Below, piece after piece: positions 3,050-13,858 of a DNA stretch of 35,636 bases (positions are counted from its first letter, which is position 1; each line of letters starts with the position of its first letter). The stretch lies in NCBI GenBank assembly GCA_022841645.1, contig JALHRC010000015.1:1-35636 (forward strand). The letters run 5' to 3'. The notes beneath the pieces are model-generated. The model did no database searches. It had not been told where the DNA came from and worked only from the letters and a program-made list of their open reading frames with translations. Origin of the DNA: Minisyncoccota bacterium (GTDB taxonomy: Bacteria > Patescibacteriota > Minisyncoccia > Phycocordibacterales > UBA918). Both the position numbers and the translations under genes were made by a program.

Positions 3050-3087
3050 CACCCACTGCATTAAATACGTATTTAATGCAGTGGGTG
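3050..3087. repeat. Perfect 38-bp palindrome, no spacer
   Basis: CACCCACTGCATTAAATAC (3050-3068) is followed directly by its exact reverse complement (3069-3087). There is no T-tract of its own; it abuts the terminator at 3088. It could be a protein-binding site, a cruciform or a transcript 3'-end hairpin. An ORF reading through it from 3031 is not a credible gene. Confidence 0.9.
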
Positions 3088-4244: not shown

Positions 4245-4270
4245 CCATAGTACGATCGATCGTACTATGG
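4245..4270. repeat. Perfect 26-bp palindrome after the DUF2914-like gene
   Basis: CCATAGTACGATC is directly followed by GATCGTACTATGG. It starts 3 nt after the stop codon at 4241 and lies 28 nt upstream of the ileS -10. It may be a transcript-end hairpin without a U-tract, or an operator for ileS. Confidence 0.85.
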
Positions 4271-4297
4271 AGGGTAGCTTTATGACTGTCTGCTTTG

Positions 4298-4306
4298 TGG
4301 TATAGT
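4298..4306 (+). promoter_or_regulatory. Extended -10 promoter of ileS
   Basis: TGGTATAGT is an extended -10. Transcription starting near 4312-4314 gives a leader of about 68 nt, unusually long for this window, filled by the hairpins at 4311-4368. Confidence 0.55.
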
Positions 4307-4310
4307 GCAA

Positions 4311-4368
4311 AAACATGCCTGATATGCATGTTTCTGGATAGTCATATCCAGTATGTCTGATATACATA
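4311..4368 (+). promoter_or_regulatory. Three-hairpin leader of ileS with a duplicated loop
   Basis: Hairpin 1 is AAACATGC (4311-4318), loop CTGATAT, GCATGTTT (4326-4333). Hairpin 2 is CTGGATA (4334-4340), loop GTCA, TATCCAG (4345-4351). Hairpin 3 is TATGT (4352-4356), loop CTGATAT, ACATA (4364-4368). Hairpins 1 and 3 share the same 7-nt loop, and the loop-closing pair changes from C-G to T-A, a compensatory change between the two copies. The hairpins abut with no gaps and end 12 nt before the ATG. No Shine-Dalgarno sequence is present. No T-box elements were recognised. Confidence 0.6.
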
Positions 4369-4380
4369 ACTTCATTTCAT

Positions 4381-7300
4381 ATGAGCAAATTACATGGCCG
4401 TGAGAACGACACCGTCGAGGTAGACGTTGTCGAGAAGAGCGAAGTTGCCCGGCGCGAAGAGGTAATCCAAGCGTTTTGGGAAGAGCACGACATTTTTCAT
4501 AAAAGTATCGAGACGCCAGCTGGTGGAGCACCGAAGGGTGATTTTGTTTTTTACGATGGACCCCCGTTTGCAACCGGCACCCCGCACTACGGCCACATTC
4601 TTGCCGGTACCATCAAAGATGCTATTCCGCGCTTTTGGACGATGCAGGGTTACCGCGTCAGGCGTACCTGGGGGTGGGACTGTCATGGCCTACCACTTGA
4701 AAACCTCATAGAGAAAAAACTTGGTCTCGCCACCAAGCGTGATATCGAAGCCTACGGCGTAAAGAACTTTAACGAAGCAGCCCGCGCTACCGTGATGGAG
4801 TACGCCGACGACTGGGCCAAGGTAGTGCCTCGCATGGGGCGCTGGGCCGACATGCAGAACGACTACAAGACGATGGATAGCACCTACACCGAAAGTGTGT
4901 GGTGGGTCTTTTCAGAACTCAACAAGAAGGGCTTGGTCTACGAAGGCTTTAAGACCATGCACCTCTGCCCGCGCTGCGGCACAACCCTATCTAACTTTGA
5001 AGTGAACTTGGGGTACAAAGACATCAAAGATATCGCCGTAACAGTGAAGCTCCCGCTTCTTGATGACACTGGTAACGCAACTGACACGAGTCTCCTGGTG
5101 TGGACGACCACCCCCTGGACGCTCCCGGGCAATATGGCGGCGGCAGTACATAAGGATTTTAAGTACAATAAATTAAAAATTAAAAGTGAAGCAGGAAAAG
5201 TTGAACACATCATCCTAGCTAAGGAGCGAGTAGCGGCAGTGCTGGGAGCGATTGAGGGTGAAGTGGTAGAAGAAATGAAAGGCGCGGACCTCGTAGGCCG
5301 CTCCTACCAACCACCTTTCGACTATTGGCAAAAACAGGAGTTTGAAGGGAAGGATAAAGCCTGGAAAATCTATCACGCCGACTACGTGGAGCTTGGCGAA
5401 GAGGGAACGGGGGCGGTTCACCTCGCACCAGCTTATGGTGAAGAGGACATGCAGCTTGCGAAAGTCCACGGCGTACCGATCGCGCACCATGTCGATGAGA
5501 GCGGGCACTTCAAGGACTTCGTCACCGACTTTGCGGGGCAACTGGTAAAGCCAAAAGACGACGATGAAGCCGGAGTCGACCACAAAGCCGCCGACATCGA
5601 GGTGCTGAAAAAACTCCAAGAGTTAGGGAAAGTATTTAAAAAAGAAAACATCACGCACAGTTACCCACACTGTTGGCGCTGTGATACACCGCTCCTCAAT
5701 TACGCGACGACCTCGTGGTTTGTGGAGGCGACAAAAATTCGCGATGAACTGGTAGCGGCCAACAACACCGTAAAGTGGGTGCCCGAGCACGTCGGCAGCA
5801 ACCGCTTTGGGCGGTGGCTTGAAGGTGTTCGCGACTGGGCCGTGTCGCGCCAGCGCTATTGGGGTGCACCCCTTCCGATTTGGAAGAATCCCGTCACCGG
5901 GCAGTACAAAGTATTTGGCTCGCTTTCAGAATTGCAGCAGCGTACGCGCAAAAGCGGCAATACCTACGTGCTTATGCGTCATGGGGAAAGTGAGAGTAAC
6001 GTGCGAGGTGTCATTAGTGCTGATCCGGAAACTGTCGACGGGCTGACTGAAAAGGGCAGGGAGCAAGTCACACATACGATTGCGACACTAAAAAATTTGG
6101 GCATTGATCTCATCATCCACTCTGGCTACCAGCGCACGCGAGAGACTGCTCAGATGGTGGCAACCGCACTTGGCCTCGACCAAGATGCTGTTGTAGCGGA
6201 TATGCGTATTGGTGAGGTCAAAACCGGCGCAGCTTTTGAAGGCGGCGTATGGGATCACTACAACCAACAGTACGGAGATTGGGAAGGGCGCTTTACAAAG
6301 CACTTTGACGATCAAGAGAATCGCCGCGACGCGCAAACACGAGCGGCGCAGTTCCTTTTTGATGTTGAAGCGCAGTATAAAAACAAGAAAATTCTTGTAA
6401 TAAGCCACGGTGGCGTATTGTTCGCCCTTGAGTGCGCGGCGAGCGGTGCAGATATCGCCCAGGCGCTCTACATTCACGACACCAGTCGTTATATGGACAA
6501 TGCGGAAGTGCGCTCCTTAACTTTTGTGCCATTCCCTCATAATGATAATTTCCTGCTCGACTACCATCGTCCATACATCGACGAGTATGAGGTGTTTGAT
6601 GAGGACGGCACGAAGCTCGTGCGCGTCCCTGATGTGTTCGACTGTTGGTTTGAATCGGGATCGATGCCGTATGGCCAGCACCACTATCCATTTTCGTGTG
6701 AGGAAGAGGAGTTTGGCAAAGAATACTTCCCAGCGCAATTCATTGCTGAAGGGCTTGATCAAACTCGTGGCTGGTTCTATTCATTGATTGTGCTGGGTAC
6801 GGCATTGTTTGGAAAGTCGCCGTACGAGCATGTGATTGTAAATGGCCTCGTGATGGCCGAGGATGGTAAGAAGATGAGTAAAAAATTACGTAACTACCCT
6901 GACCCAATGGAAGTAGCTGACCGAGTGGGGGCTGATGCAATTCGGTATTACCTCCTCACCTCGCCAGTAGTGCGGGGGGAAGATTTGAGTTTCTCAGAAA
7001 GAGAAGTGCTCGAGCAGCAGCGCAAAAACATCGGTCGCCTCCACAACGTACTGGCTATGTACGAGCTCTATGCCGATAGTACGAAAGCAAGCGACACCCC
7101 CACCCACGTACTCGACCATTGGATCATAGCGCGTCTGAATCAGCTAGTCGCTGAAAGCGAGGCTGGCTATAAAGCCTACGAACTCGATCGCGCCACTCGT
7201 CCCATCGCTGACTTTATTGACGATCTTTCGGTGTGGTATCTGAGGCGCTCGCGTGACCGATTTAAGAGTGATGATCAGCGCGACAAGCAGGCGGCACTCG

Positions 7301-7923
7301 CGACCCTCCGCCACACGCTCCGGACGCTCGCGCTCGTCATGGCCCCCGTCATGCCATTTTATGCTGAGTACCTTTGGCAAGCGGTGAAAGCTGAAGATGA
7401 CGCAGAAAGTGTGCACCTTGGCGCGTGGCCGAAAGGCGGGGAAGTAGATAGTGAGCTTGTTGAAGCGATGGCGGTGGTGCGGCAGCAGGTGACGATCGCG
7501 CTTGAGCTGCGCACCAAGGCCGGCATCAAAGTGCGCCAACCCCTCGCGACCTTGGAGCTAGCTCTTGAGCTACCTCTAGAGCTGGTTTCCATTATTAAAG
7601 ATGAGGTCAATGTGAAAGAGGTGCGCAGTGGCGCAGTCGTGAAGCTCGATACCACGCTCACACCCGAACTGATTGCTGAAGGGAATGTGCGTGAATTTAT
7701 GCGCGGGGTGCAAGAGCAGCGCAAGGAAAATGGCCTAGCGCCCGCGGATCGAGTTGTACTCACCATCGGCACTTCACCCGAAGGCCAAGCGCTTATCGAA
7801 CGTTCCCGTGACACTATCATGAAGACGGTAGGCGCTGCCGACCTTGTTTTTGCTCCTACCGAAGGAGCCACGATCGCTGCCGGCGAATACTCGTTTGTGG
7901 TGAGTCTGGTAAAACGAACGTAG
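4381..7923 (+). CDS. ileS: Isoleucyl-tRNA synthetase with inserted histidine-phosphatase domain
   Basis: Charges tRNA(Ile). HYGH is at residues 69-72 and KMSKK at 831-835 (the eukaryote-like type has KMSK-R/K). The CP1 editing domain shows the TTTPWTLPGN motif and GTGAVHLAPAYGEED. Two CxxC pairs (CPRCGT near residue 198; CWRCDT near 437) are visible. From about residue 525 to 720 there is an extra domain absent from ordinary IleRS. It has LMRHGES (R533, H534), SGYQRTRETA (R585), a candidate acid at E612 and VISHGG (H676), the full catalytic set of the histidine phosphatase/phosphoglycerate mutase superfamily. The insertion lies between the PLPIW...GSLSEL segment and LDYHRPYID, which are near-adjacent in ordinary IleRS. 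Total 1180 aa, about 985 without the insert. The frame is unbroken, so this is not an assembly join. Confidence 0.96.
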   Translation: MSKLHGRENDTVEVDVVEKSEVARREEVIQAFWEEHDIFHKSIETPAGGAPKGDFVFYDGPPFATGTPHYGHILAGTIKDAIPRFWTMQGYRVRRTWGWDCHGLPLENLIEKKLGLATKRDIEAYGVKNFNEAARATVMEYADDWAKVVPRMGRWADMQNDYKTMDSTYTESVWWVFSELNKKGLVYEGFKTMHLCPRCGTTLSNFEVNLGYKDIKDIAVTVKLPLLDDTGNATDTSLLVWTTTPWTLPGNMAAAVHKDFKYNKLKIKSEAGKVEHIILAKERVAAVLGAIEGEVVEEMKGADLVGRSYQPPFDYWQKQEFEGKDKAWKIYHADYVELGEEGTGAVHLAPAYGEEDMQLAKVHGVPIAHHVDESGHFKDFVTDFAGQLVKPKDDDEAGVDHKAADIEVLKKLQELGKVFKKENITHSYPHCWRCDTPLLNYATTSWFVEATKIRDELVAANNTVKWVPEHVGSNRFGRWLEGVRDWAVSRQRYWGAPLPIWKNPVTGQYKVFGSLSELQQRTRKSGNTYVLMRHGESESNVRGVISADPETVDGLTEKGREQVTHTIATLKNLGIDLIIHSGYQRTRETAQMVATALGLDQDAVVADMRIGEVKTGAAFEGGVWDHYNQQYGDWEGRFTKHFDDQENRRDAQTRAAQFLFDVEAQYKNKKILVISHGGVLFALECAASGADIAQALYIHDTSRYMDNAEVRSLTFVPFPHNDNFLLDYHRPYIDEYEVFDEDGTKLVRVPDVFDCWFESGSMPYGQHHYPFSCEEEEFGKEYFPAQFIAEGLDQTRGWFYSLIVLGTALFGKSPYEHVIVNGLVMAEDGKKMSKKLRNYPDPMEVADRVGADAIRYYLLTSPVVRGEDLSFSEREVLEQQRKNIGRLHNVLAMYELYADSTKASDTPTHVLDHWIIARLNQLVAESEAGYKAYELDRATRPIADFIDDLSVWYLRRSRDRFKSDDQRDKQAALATLRHTLRTLALVMAPVMPFYAEYLWQAVKAEDDAESVHLGAWPKGGEVDSELVEAMAVVRQQVTIALELRTKAGIKVRQPLATLELALELPLELVSIIKDEVNVKEVRSGAVVKLDTTLTPELIAEGNVREFMRGVQEQRKENGLAPADRVVLTIGTSPEGQALIERSRDTIMKTVGAADLVFAPTEGATIAAGEYSFVVSLVKRT

Positions 7924-10912: not shown

Positions 10913-10983
10913 GTCGCACACCACCATTGATCACGTTAGAGACTGCCCACGTTTGCCTTACCAAAATACTTTACTGTCTGCTT

Positions 10984-12369
10984 ATGAATAATAAAGACTC
11001 TAATGTGATGGAGAAAATCGTGTCGCTGTGTAAGCGACGCGGTTTTATCTTTCAAGGCAGTGAAATTTATGGAGGCCTTGCTGGTACCTTTGACTACGGC
11101 CCCTTAGGTCTCGCTATCAAGAAAAATATCGAGCGGCTGTGGTGGAAGCAGTTTGTTGACGATCGTACCGACATGTACGGGATTCAGGCTTCAAACATTT
11201 CGAGTGCTAAAGTGTGGGAAGCGTCGGGCCATACGACCACCTTCCATGATCCCTTAGTGGAAGACGTAAAAACAAAAAAGCGCTATCGCGCCGACCACTT
11301 GCTTGAGGAGGCGGGACATAGTGCCGAGGGGCTATCACTTGAGGAGTTGGGCGCGAAGCTCAAGGAGCATGGTGTGGTAAGTCCTGAAGGTAATCCAATT
11401 TCCGAGCCCAAGGTATTCAACCTCCTCTTTCCGGTGTACATGGGCGCGGTGGCGAATGACGAATCGCTGGCGTACCTGCGTGGCGAGACCGCCCAGGGAA
11501 TGTTCACCAATTTCAAAAATATTCTTGATTGCTTTGCTCCCAAGCTGCCGTTTGGCATTGCTCAGATTGGGACGTCGTTCCGCAACGAAATTGCTGCTCG
11601 CGATTTTATCTTCCGCGTACGTGAGCTCGAGATTATGGAGTTTGAATACTTTATCAAAGCGAGTGAGTGGGAGGAGCAGTTTGAGGCGTGGCGTGCTGAG
11701 TACCACCGCTGGTTTGCGACACTGGGCTTTTCACCTGAGGACTACCAGGAAGTTGAACTCGATGAGAAGGACCGCGCCCACTACAGCAAGCGTACGATGG
11801 ACTTCTATTTTAAGTACCCGTTTGGATTTAAAGAAATTGGTGGTATTGCCTACCGCACCGACTACGACCTCAAAAATCACATGGAAAAAAGTGGCGTTGA
11901 CATGCGCTACCTTGACGCAGAAACCAACGAGAAGTTTATTCCGCATGTGATGGAGCCTACCTTTGGTCTTGGCCGCACGGTTCTCGCGGTAATTGCCAAG
12001 GGCTACACCGAAGACGAAATGAGTGGGGAAGTACGAACGTACTTAAAGCTGCCCGCCCACCTCGCACCGTACCGCGCCTGTGTTTCTCCCCTCCTTCGAA
12101 ATAAACCGCCGCTCGTTGAGAAAGCGCGTGAAGTGTTCCTCGCGCTCAAGAAAGAGTTTGGGAACATCACCTGGGACGACAATGGCAACATCGGCAAGCG
12201 CTACCGCCGCCAGGATGAGATCGGCACGCCGTACTGCATCGTCATTGACTTCGATACGCTCGGTGAAGAGAACCCGGTCCATAAAGATACGGTCACCATC
12301 CGTAACCGCGACACGGGCGAGCAAGAGCGCGTGGCAGTCGTCGACCTGTTAGCGCGCTTGCGCGGTTAG
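10984..12369 (+). CDS. glyS: Glycyl-tRNA synthetase, dimeric (alpha2) class II type
   Basis: Charges tRNA(Gly). The alpha2-type landmarks are all present: RGFIFQGSEIYGGLAGTFDYGPLG at the N-terminus, YLRGETAQGMFTNF, PFGIAQIGTSFRNEI (motif 2), EFEYFI, and the motif-3 phrase FGLGRTVLAVI. A C-terminal anticodon-binding domain follows (residues about 350-461). It is 461 aa from ATG 10984. An upstream in-frame non-ATG start at 10927 is possible but adds an unconserved tail. metG begins 40 nt downstream, and ileS lies earlier on the same strand. Confidence 0.95.
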   Translation: MNNKDSNVMEKIVSLCKRRGFIFQGSEIYGGLAGTFDYGPLGLAIKKNIERLWWKQFVDDRTDMYGIQASNISSAKVWEASGHTTTFHDPLVEDVKTKKRYRADHLLEEAGHSAEGLSLEELGAKLKEHGVVSPEGNPISEPKVFNLLFPVYMGAVANDESLAYLRGETAQGMFTNFKNILDCFAPKLPFGIAQIGTSFRNEIAARDFIFRVRELEIMEFEYFIKASEWEEQFEAWRAEYHRWFATLGFSPEDYQEVELDEKDRAHYSKRTMDFYFKYPFGFKEIGGIAYRTDYDLKNHMEKSGVDMRYLDAETNEKFIPHVMEPTFGLGRTVLAVIAKGYTEDEMSGEVRTYLKLPAHLAPYRACVSPLLRNKPPLVEKAREVFLALKKEFGNITWDDNGNIGKRYRRQDEIGTPYCIVIDFDTLGEENPVHKDTVTIRNRDTGEQERVAVVDLLARLRG

Positions 12370-12392
12370 GCCTACCCCTTTTATCGGCGGAG

Positions 12393-12401
12393 TGCTAAAG
12401 T
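12393..12401 (+). promoter_or_regulatory. Extended -10 promoter of metG
   Basis: TGCTAAAGT ends 8 nt before ATG 12410. It is of the same leaderless type as the dut and 8963 promoters. Confidence 0.45.
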
Positions 12402-12409
12402 AGGTTTTT

Positions 12410-13858
12410 ATGAAGCCCCGCTACCTCACCACCACCTTGCCGTACGTCAATTCCGATCCCCATATCGGATTTGCGCTCGAGATATTACAGGCGGACGCGC
12501 TCGCGCGCTACTCTCGCTCAGAGGGTCACGAAGTCTTTTTTAACACCGGTACTGACGAGCATGGCCAGAAGATCGCCCAAGTAGCTGACCGCGCCGGGCA
12601 AGACCGCCAAGCCTACGTCGACCATTACGCTGGCGAATTTAAAAAACTCGGTGCGGCCCTCGACCTTTCCTACGACCGCTTTATCCGCACTACTGATCCT
12701 GAACACAAAGCTGCTGCTCAGGCGATCTGGCAGCGTTGTGCTGCGCAGGGTGATATCTACAAAAAAAGTTATCGGGGTCTTTATTGTGTCGGTTGCGAAC
12801 TCTACTATCAGGAAGACGAGCTCGACGAAAACCGCTGTTGCACTATTCACGGCAAGCCAGTCGAAGAGGTCGAGGAAGAAAACTACTTTTTTGCGCTCTC
12901 TAAGTATCAGGCTTACCTCGAGGAATATCTAGAGCAGCCTGGTGTTGTTTTGCCCGAGTGGCGTCGCGAAGAGGCGATAACCTTTGTGAAGAAGGGTCTT
13001 CAAGACTTTAGTATCAGTCGCAACCGCGCGCGACTTGATTGGGGAATCCCCGTACCCGGCGACGACGAGCAAGTGATGTACGTCTGGTTTGACGCCCTCA
13101 CCAATTACATCAGTACCCTCGGCTGGCCCGACGACGCAGAAGGAACTTTCAAGAAGTTTTGGACGGATGGTGAGACACTGCAAATGGCCGGGAAGGATCA
13201 GGTGCGTTTCCAGTCCATCATGTGGCAGGCGATGCTAAAGAGTGCCGGCGTAAAGGCCACTGACCAGGTGGTCTACCACGGCTTTATTACCTCCGCTGGA
13301 CAGAAGATGAGTAAATCAATTGGGAACGTCATTAGTCCCTATGAGCTCACTGCCCGTTATGGTACCGACGCGACGCGCTACCTCCTGTTGCGTCACGTGC
13401 ATCCGTTTGAAGACACTGACATTACCTGGGAGCGCCTTGATGAGTGGTATACCGCCCACTTGGTAAACGGCCTCGGCAACATCGTAGCCCGCGTAATGAA
13501 AATGGCGGAAACCCATCTAGAAGCACCGGTCGCAGTGGTAGACGAACCAACTGAATCTTCTTACCAGGAGCTGCTTTCTGCGTACAATCTCCAGGCCGCT
13601 CTCGATCGGATTTTTGAGCATATTCAAAAAGCTGATGAACACATCCAGACCACCGAGCCATTTAAAAAAATTAAGTCGAACGACGAGGGGGAAGTGGCTG
13701 AAGCAAAAGAAATAATTGCACGCCTCGTTCAAAATCTGTACACGGTAGCAACGTACCTTGCGCCCTTTATGCCAACCACCGCAGCGGCCATCGTGCGTGC
13801 TGTTTGTGAAAATAAAAAACCGGCAAACCTCTTCCCGCGCCTAGAAGATAAAAAATAA
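12410..13858 (+). CDS. metG: Methionyl-tRNA synthetase (short form)
   Basis: Charges initiator and elongator tRNA(Met). HIGF is at residues 18-21 (HIGH-type motif) and KMSKS at 299-303. The knuckle region has CVGCELYY and a second pair (ENRCCTIHG), so at least part of the zinc site remains. The helical anticodon-binding domain runs from about 350 to 480. The protein stops at 482 aa without the C-terminal tRNA-binding (EMAP/Trbp111-like) domain found in the roughly 650-aa forms. A hydrolase gene starts 4 nt downstream and is probably co-transcribed. Confidence 0.95.
   Translation: MKPRYLTTTLPYVNSDPHIGFALEILQADALARYSRSEGHEVFFNTGTDEHGQKIAQVADRAGQDRQAYVDHYAGEFKKLGAALDLSYDRFIRTTDPEHKAAAQAIWQRCAAQGDIYKKSYRGLYCVGCELYYQEDELDENRCCTIHGKPVEEVEEENYFFALSKYQAYLEEYLEQPGVVLPEWRREEAITFVKKGLQDFSISRNRARLDWGIPVPGDDEQVMYVWFDALTNYISTLGWPDDAEGTFKKFWTDGETLQMAGKDQVRFQSIMWQAMLKSAGVKATDQVVYHGFITSAGQKMSKSIGNVISPYELTARYGTDATRYLLLRHVHPFEDTDITWERLDEWYTAHLVNGLGNIVARVMKMAETHLEAPVAVVDEPTESSYQELLSAYNLQAALDRIFEHIQKADEHIQTTEPFKKIKSNDEGEVAEAKEIIARLVQNLYTVATYLAPFMPTTAAAIVRAVCENKKPANLFPRLEDKK

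Follow-up and report, generated by a model that had tools for sequence, protein, structure and literature searches.

In the literature that we found, autoregulation of a bacterial aminoacyl-tRNA synthetase by an anticodon mimic is established for thrS of Escherichia coli, and it was proposed long ago for hisS. The E. coli thrS operator contains two anticodon-arm mimics that bind the threonyl-tRNA synthetase (ThrRS), and ribosome binding is thereby blocked (PMC9976931, PMC6542539). Here, we analyse the leader of ileS, the gene for isoleucyl-tRNA synthetase (IleRS), in a stretch of 35,636 nucleotides from a Minisyncoccota bacterium (contig JALHRC010000015.1, contig C15 of a 1.1-Mb genome; hereafter, the window). 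The window belongs to a Kaiserbacteria-like family of Patescibacteria, most of its named relatives carrying the labels Patescibacteria, Candidatus Kaiserbacteria, Elulimicrobium or Nomurabacteria. Altogether, our comparative analysis supports a model whereby this leader is probably a translational operator made of two mimics of the tRNA-Ile(GAU) anticodon arm, to which IleRS would bind to repress its own translation.

Results

The preliminary description of this DNA had placed three abutting hairpins in front of ileS, and these are present exactly to the base (Table 1), all three of them in the minimum-energy fold of positions 4290-4400. As it had also pointed out, hairpins 1 and 2 share the loop CTGATAT, and their closing pairs differ in a compensatory manner, C-G in hairpin 1 versus U-A in hairpin 2. 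The start codon of ileS follows 12 nt 3' of hairpin 2, and there is no recognisable Shine-Dalgarno sequence in positions 4369-4380 of the window's leader. The fold of 4290-4400 is only modestly better than that of shuffled versions (z -1.4 for this single sequence), and the case therefore rests on comparison with relatives.

Table 1 Features of the ileS leader in the window
Feature	Position	Strand	Basis
Extended -10 promoter element TGGTATAGT of ileS	4298..4306	+	TGnTA motif, at a fixed distance to the hairpin 1 loop in the family
Hairpin 1, tRNA-Ile(GAU) anticodon-arm mimic; 8-bp stem of AAACATGC (4311-4318) and GCATGTTT (4326-4333), loop CUGAUAU (CTGATAT, 4319-4325)	4311..4333	+	Conservation, covariation, loop of the genome's own tRNA-Ile(GAU)
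Middle hairpin CTGGATA-GTCA-TATCCAG, structural spacer, sequence not conserved	4334..4351	+	Spacer length modes and folding
Hairpin 2, second tRNA-Ile(GAU) anticodon-arm mimic; weak A/U stem of TATGT (4352-4356) and ACATA (4364-4368), loop CUGAUAU (CTGATAT, 4357-4363)	4352..4368	+	Pairing, two-sided changes
Short unstructured stretch ACTTCATTTCAT between hairpin 2 and the ileS start codon	4369..4380	+	Sequence
ileS, encoding an isoleucyl-tRNA synthetase of 1180 aa that carries a histidine-phosphatase insert; start codon ATG 4381	4381..7923	+	TIGR00392 (868 bits, cut-off 621, profile search); Pfam PF00133, PF08264, PF00300

For this comparison, we collected the ileS upstream regions of 90 genomes, among them 45 of the window's family that could be examined, and listed hairpins with a 7-nt loop, U at loop position 2 and at least four pairs. 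Two or more such hairpins with a U-GAU loop were found in the ileS leader of 40 of the 45 family genomes, and all 40 genomes with the twin in the set of 90 lie inside the family; no other triplet occurred twice in the ileS leaders of more than one genome. A 41st family genome (G027) has both hairpins, the loop of hairpin 2 being one base longer. Genomes sampled from the order's other families lack the twin hairpin in their ileS leaders.

Close relatives keep the core of the loop, CUGAU being invariant in all aligned copies of hairpins 1 and 2 (37 and 25 distinct sequences, respectively). The stems around it change, and they do so in pairs: the five inner pairs of hairpin 1 are paired in 100% of cells with two-sided changes at all seven pairs, and in hairpin 2, 98.4% of the stem cells are paired and each of the five pairs has changed on both sides. 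Hairpin 1 reaches a covariation score of 0.999 (0.317 when shuffled, with slid controls far lower) and hairpin 2 one of 0.477 (0.132 when shuffled); these shuffle controls leave relatedness in, while the variety of stem types speaks against relatedness alone. Although the hairpin 2 stem is otherwise nearly fixed (TATGT/ACATA), two related genomes have wholly different stems (TGTGG/CCACA and TACCG/CGGTA) around the same CUGAU loop. Thus, aligning the leaders of relatives, the check that the preliminary description had proposed, brought out strong stem covariation.

What had been missed is the identity of the loop, which points to IleRS as the ligand. CUGAUAU is laid out as an anticodon loop, with C32, U33, GAU, A37 and a pyrimidine at position 38 (positions 32-38). 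GAU is the anticodon of the major isoleucine tRNA. In line with recognition by IleRS, the known bacterial identity elements for isoleucine in the anticodon arm include C29-G41, position 34, A35, U36, A37 and A38 (PMC9976931). The anticodon arm of the genome's own tRNA-Ile(GAU) reads TTCGA-CTGATAC-TCGAA, and among the tRNA anticodon loops resolved in this genome, only that of tRNA-Ile(GAU) contains CTGAT. By motif search, 30 genomes of the family have the tRNA-Ile(GAU) loop CTGATAC, and two others, G017 and G039, have CTGATAA instead. The leader loops almost always carry a pyrimidine at position 38; this could be read as proof of co-evolution with the tRNA, an argument that is weakened by G039 and by other families that have C38 and no leader, so that it gives mild support only. 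The genome also encodes a second isoleucine tRNA, tRNA-Ile(UAU), with the loop CTTATAC (L039 1501-1573), and no isoleucine tRNA of the CAU type was recognised as such in it.

The two mimics have a defined place relative to the promoter and the start codon. A TGnTA extended -10 element lies about 21 nt 5' of the hairpin 1 loop, at a fixed distance, in 35 of the 40 family leaders, and the predicted transcript therefore starts at the foot of hairpin 1. For the window, the position of this element predicts a start near 4312-4314, at the 5' foot of hairpin 1 and not downstream of the hairpins, in agreement with the start near 4312 that had been put forward earlier. At the other end of the leader, the first AUG is 4-19 nt 3' of hairpin 2 in 39 of 40 genomes, near enough for interference with ribosome binding. 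The spacer between the mimics is bimodal, half of the 40 genomes having 5-11 nt and half 19-130 nt; all 20 long spacers fold into a hairpin of their own, with unrelated sequences. The middle hairpin of the window is one of these always-folded long spacers and therefore looks like a variable bridge that holds both mimics close, rather than a conserved third element. Among 12 leaders that were folded, isolated stem energies were -3.8 to -7.6 kcal/mol for hairpin 1 and about -0.3 to -2.8 kcal/mol for hairpin 2.

Because these inverted repeats adjoin a promoter, they could in principle be near-palindromes that bind a transcription factor as a DNA operator. We regard this as very improbable: the stems of hairpin 1 vary freely yet covary around an invariant, asymmetric loop, the reverse of what a palindromic DNA site would show, and the hairpins lie downstream of the -10 box at a hairpin-to-hairpin spacing that ranges from 5 to 130 nt.

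The position of hairpin 1 also bears on another explanation, namely that IleRS binds the hairpins and thereby controls mRNA stability, or is stored on its message, without occluding the ribosome. Stable 5'-terminal hairpins commonly protect mRNA, and the predicted transcript starts directly with hairpin 1. A protective hairpin, however, needs neither an invariant CUGAU loop nor a weak second hairpin in front of the start codon, and in a group of genomes described below (family f86) a single hairpin overlaps the start codon itself, making this explanation unlikely.

Well-supported matches to the element lie only at ileS. Of the genome searches, one with a covariance model of the twin, again a check that had been suggested, gave one match each in ten family genomes among 397 genomes of the order, all at ileS; outside the family, it gave one match at ileS (G355) and one weak match elsewhere (G291). 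Eleven of the 397 genomes contain the exact 15-mer ATGTCTGATAYACAT of hairpin 2, seven of them from the window's family and four from family f86, always at ileS, and a reversed control of this pattern had no match in the listed genomes. Among 384 genomes of the class, pattern matches outside the family lie away from ileS matches and resemble chance hits. At nine other synthetase gene groups (up to 6 genomes), no conserved cognate mimic was found. Together with conservation and covariation, the covariance-model search supports the earlier proposal that a twin-hairpin leader binding a protein or ligand controls ileS.

In principle, the loops might instead be read by another factor that binds tRNA-Ile, for example a tRNA-modifying enzyme acting on the anticodon loop, or by some other RNA-binding protein: the loop is all that the sequence displays, other proteins touch anticodon loops too, and the stem of hairpin 2 is so nearly constant that more than the loop may be recognised. 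Such a reader seems rather unlikely, since the element is found only at ileS, whose own product is the simplest candidate for the cognate protein, and since the precedent on record is a synthetase that regulates itself (PMC9976931, PMC6542539).

The location of the element in front of an aminoacyl-tRNA synthetase gene would also suit a T-box or another tRNA-sensing riboswitch. T-boxes often precede genes of this kind. In the window, however, Rfam searches at gathering and permissive thresholds gave nothing relevant, no family reaching threshold and the weak matches being unrelated; there is no plus-strand terminator, and the loop bears the anticodon GAU rather than an AUC specifier. A riboswitch of this type is thus the least probable of the explanations considered here.

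Four genomes of family f86 have a single-mimic form of the element. Here, the 5' arm of the only hairpin contains the IleRS start codon, the sequence ATG TCT GAT ATA CAT encoding the first residues of the protein, MSDIH. A TATAAT box lies 7-10 nt 5' of this ATG in three of the four genomes, which suggests that the f86 ileS transcript is nearly leaderless. All four genomes share the same 15 bases, synonymous positions and the ATA codon included, and the protein diverges right after them; this identity is partly a product of the search, as the f86 genomes were found with the same 15-mer pattern. A start codon inside the hairpin suits repression at initiation. In the window's family, the corresponding ATG may stand in any of the three frames of ileS and is therefore not a conserved start. 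In an IleRS tree, the f86 enzymes fall outside the window's family, and between the two are relatives in which the hairpin was not found; a single origin with losses and independent gains are both possible.

That the ATG in hairpin 2 is present in most genomes of the window's family, and is the IleRS start codon in f86, raises the question of whether it begins a short isoleucine-sensing leader peptide encoded by an upstream open reading frame (ORF). This is highly improbable. In the window's family, its frame relative to ileS is scattered over the three phases, the isoleucine codon ATA is replaced by ACA, AAG or TTT in several genomes, some genomes lack an ATG at this place altogether (TTGGT, TACCG, CACGG), and no terminator was found on the plus strand. 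A T-box, a leader peptide, a conserved upstream ORF and a DNA operator were each tested and rejected.

Several further features were noted at this locus and in its relatives. A histidine-phosphatase domain (PF00300; residues 530-699, window positions 5968-6477) splits the catalytic domain of IleRS; the insert is shared with L027, L069, L072 and L075, and L079 lacks it. In one family member (G041; ileS upstream region L192), there is one strong 8-bp anticodon mimic, with other hairpins in place of hairpin 1, and the ileS frame has one TAG inside. Perfect palindromes are present at 4245-4270 (CCATAGTACGATCGATCGTACTATGG, 26 nt), just 5' of the ileS promoter and not visible in the matching region of the relative G036, and at 3050-3087 (CACCCACTGCATTAAATACGTATTTAATGCAGTGGGTG, 38 nt), upstream of a DUF2914 gene. 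Positions 10927-13858 apparently hold two more synthetase genes, with a PF00587 match at 11473-11997 and class I synthetase domain matches at 12431-13396.

Discussion

In our model of the ileS operator, IleRS that is in excess over the available tRNA-Ile would use its anticodon-binding domain to bind the leader hairpins. The anchor would be hairpin 1, which is stable and with which the transcript begins, while hairpin 2, intrinsically weak and located 4-19 nt before the start codon, would be kept folded by IleRS and act as the switch. Bound IleRS would cover the ribosome landing site, and translation would be repressed; plentiful tRNA-Ile would compete for IleRS, allowing ileS to be translated. 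The middle hairpin, where present, would keep the mimics near each other. We speculate, more tentatively, that this reflects a two-site design in which the stable 5' mimic recruits IleRS and the weak second mimic folds only when held by the enzyme, thereby closing the start region of an mRNA that lacks a recognisable Shine-Dalgarno sequence. In f86, by the same reasoning, the one mimic with the start codon in its stem might allow the synthetase to mask that codon directly.

Several observations weigh against this model. The leader is missing from three family genomes (G017, G043 and G044), and a single hairpin is present in G041. When whole leaders are folded in isolation, hairpin 2 is often not part of the best structure; the argument is carried by covariation, not by folding energy. 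The near-fixed stem of hairpin 2 is not accounted for by the model. The mimicry of the tRNA is also imperfect, as the tRNA loop of G039 is CTGATAA, yet its leader loops are CTGATAC and CTGATAT; pair 31-39 is C-G or U-A in the leaders versus A-U in most family tRNAs; and A37 is replaced in a few leader loops (CTGATTT, CTGATCT). In bacteria, isoleucylation often requires the modified base t6A37 (PMC9976931), a modification that an mRNA hairpin may lack.

If the model is correct, the ileS leader would be an independent case of synthetase autoregulation by anticodon mimicry, here for a different amino acid, with a synthetase of class Ia and in an almost entirely uncultured bacterial group. For Patescibacteria, it would supply a concrete mechanism of gene control, and it would offer a means of studying how mRNAs without a Shine-Dalgarno sequence are regulated by a synthetase. 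At about 60 nt the leader is compact; with its clear covariation and two architectures, it lends itself to in vitro tests with short RNAs. In the open-access literature searched, we found no report of an anticodon-mimic operator at ileS or of such control in Patescibacteria.

The closest described system remains the E. coli thrS operator, which likewise has two cognate anticodon-arm mimics in a synthetase mRNA leader, 5' of the start codon (PMC9976931, PMC6542539). Four features of a thrS-type operator that show in the sequence, namely a cognate anticodon hairpin, two mimics, compensatory stems and closeness to the start codon, are present in the window's family; the gene is ileS and not thrS, and the likeness is one of design rather than of descent. 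Unlike thrS, the ileS case involves tRNA-Ile(GAU) and a class Ia synthetase. Class Ia synthetases are as a rule monomeric, whereas ThrRS is a dimer. Further differences from thrS are that the ileS leader is short and without a recognisable Shine-Dalgarno sequence, that its mimics are separated by 5-11 nt or by a hairpin, that the host is patescibacterial, and that the f86 form has a single mimic containing the start codon.

More distant parallels exist. In yeast, the HisRS, AspRS and ThrRS/RPC10 elements also involve a synthetase that binds an anticodon-arm-like element in mRNA, as is predicted here, and HisRS and AspRS regulate themselves (PMC6542539, PMC9976931, PMC9956033); these systems differ in being eukaryotic, in their amino acids, and in placement and mechanism. 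As in T-box riboswitches, a leader RNA is predicted to place a synthetase gene under the control of the state of its tRNA, but a T-box binds uncharged tRNA via a specifier codon, whereas the ileS leader carries an anticodon rather than a codon and gave no match to the T-box family. Finally, as in the autoregulatory leaders of ribosomal-protein genes, the mRNA would mimic the natural RNA target of the RNA-binding protein that it encodes, this target being a tRNA rather than rRNA. The principle is thus a known one, while the gene, the tRNA, the lineage and the form with the start codon inside the mimic look new.
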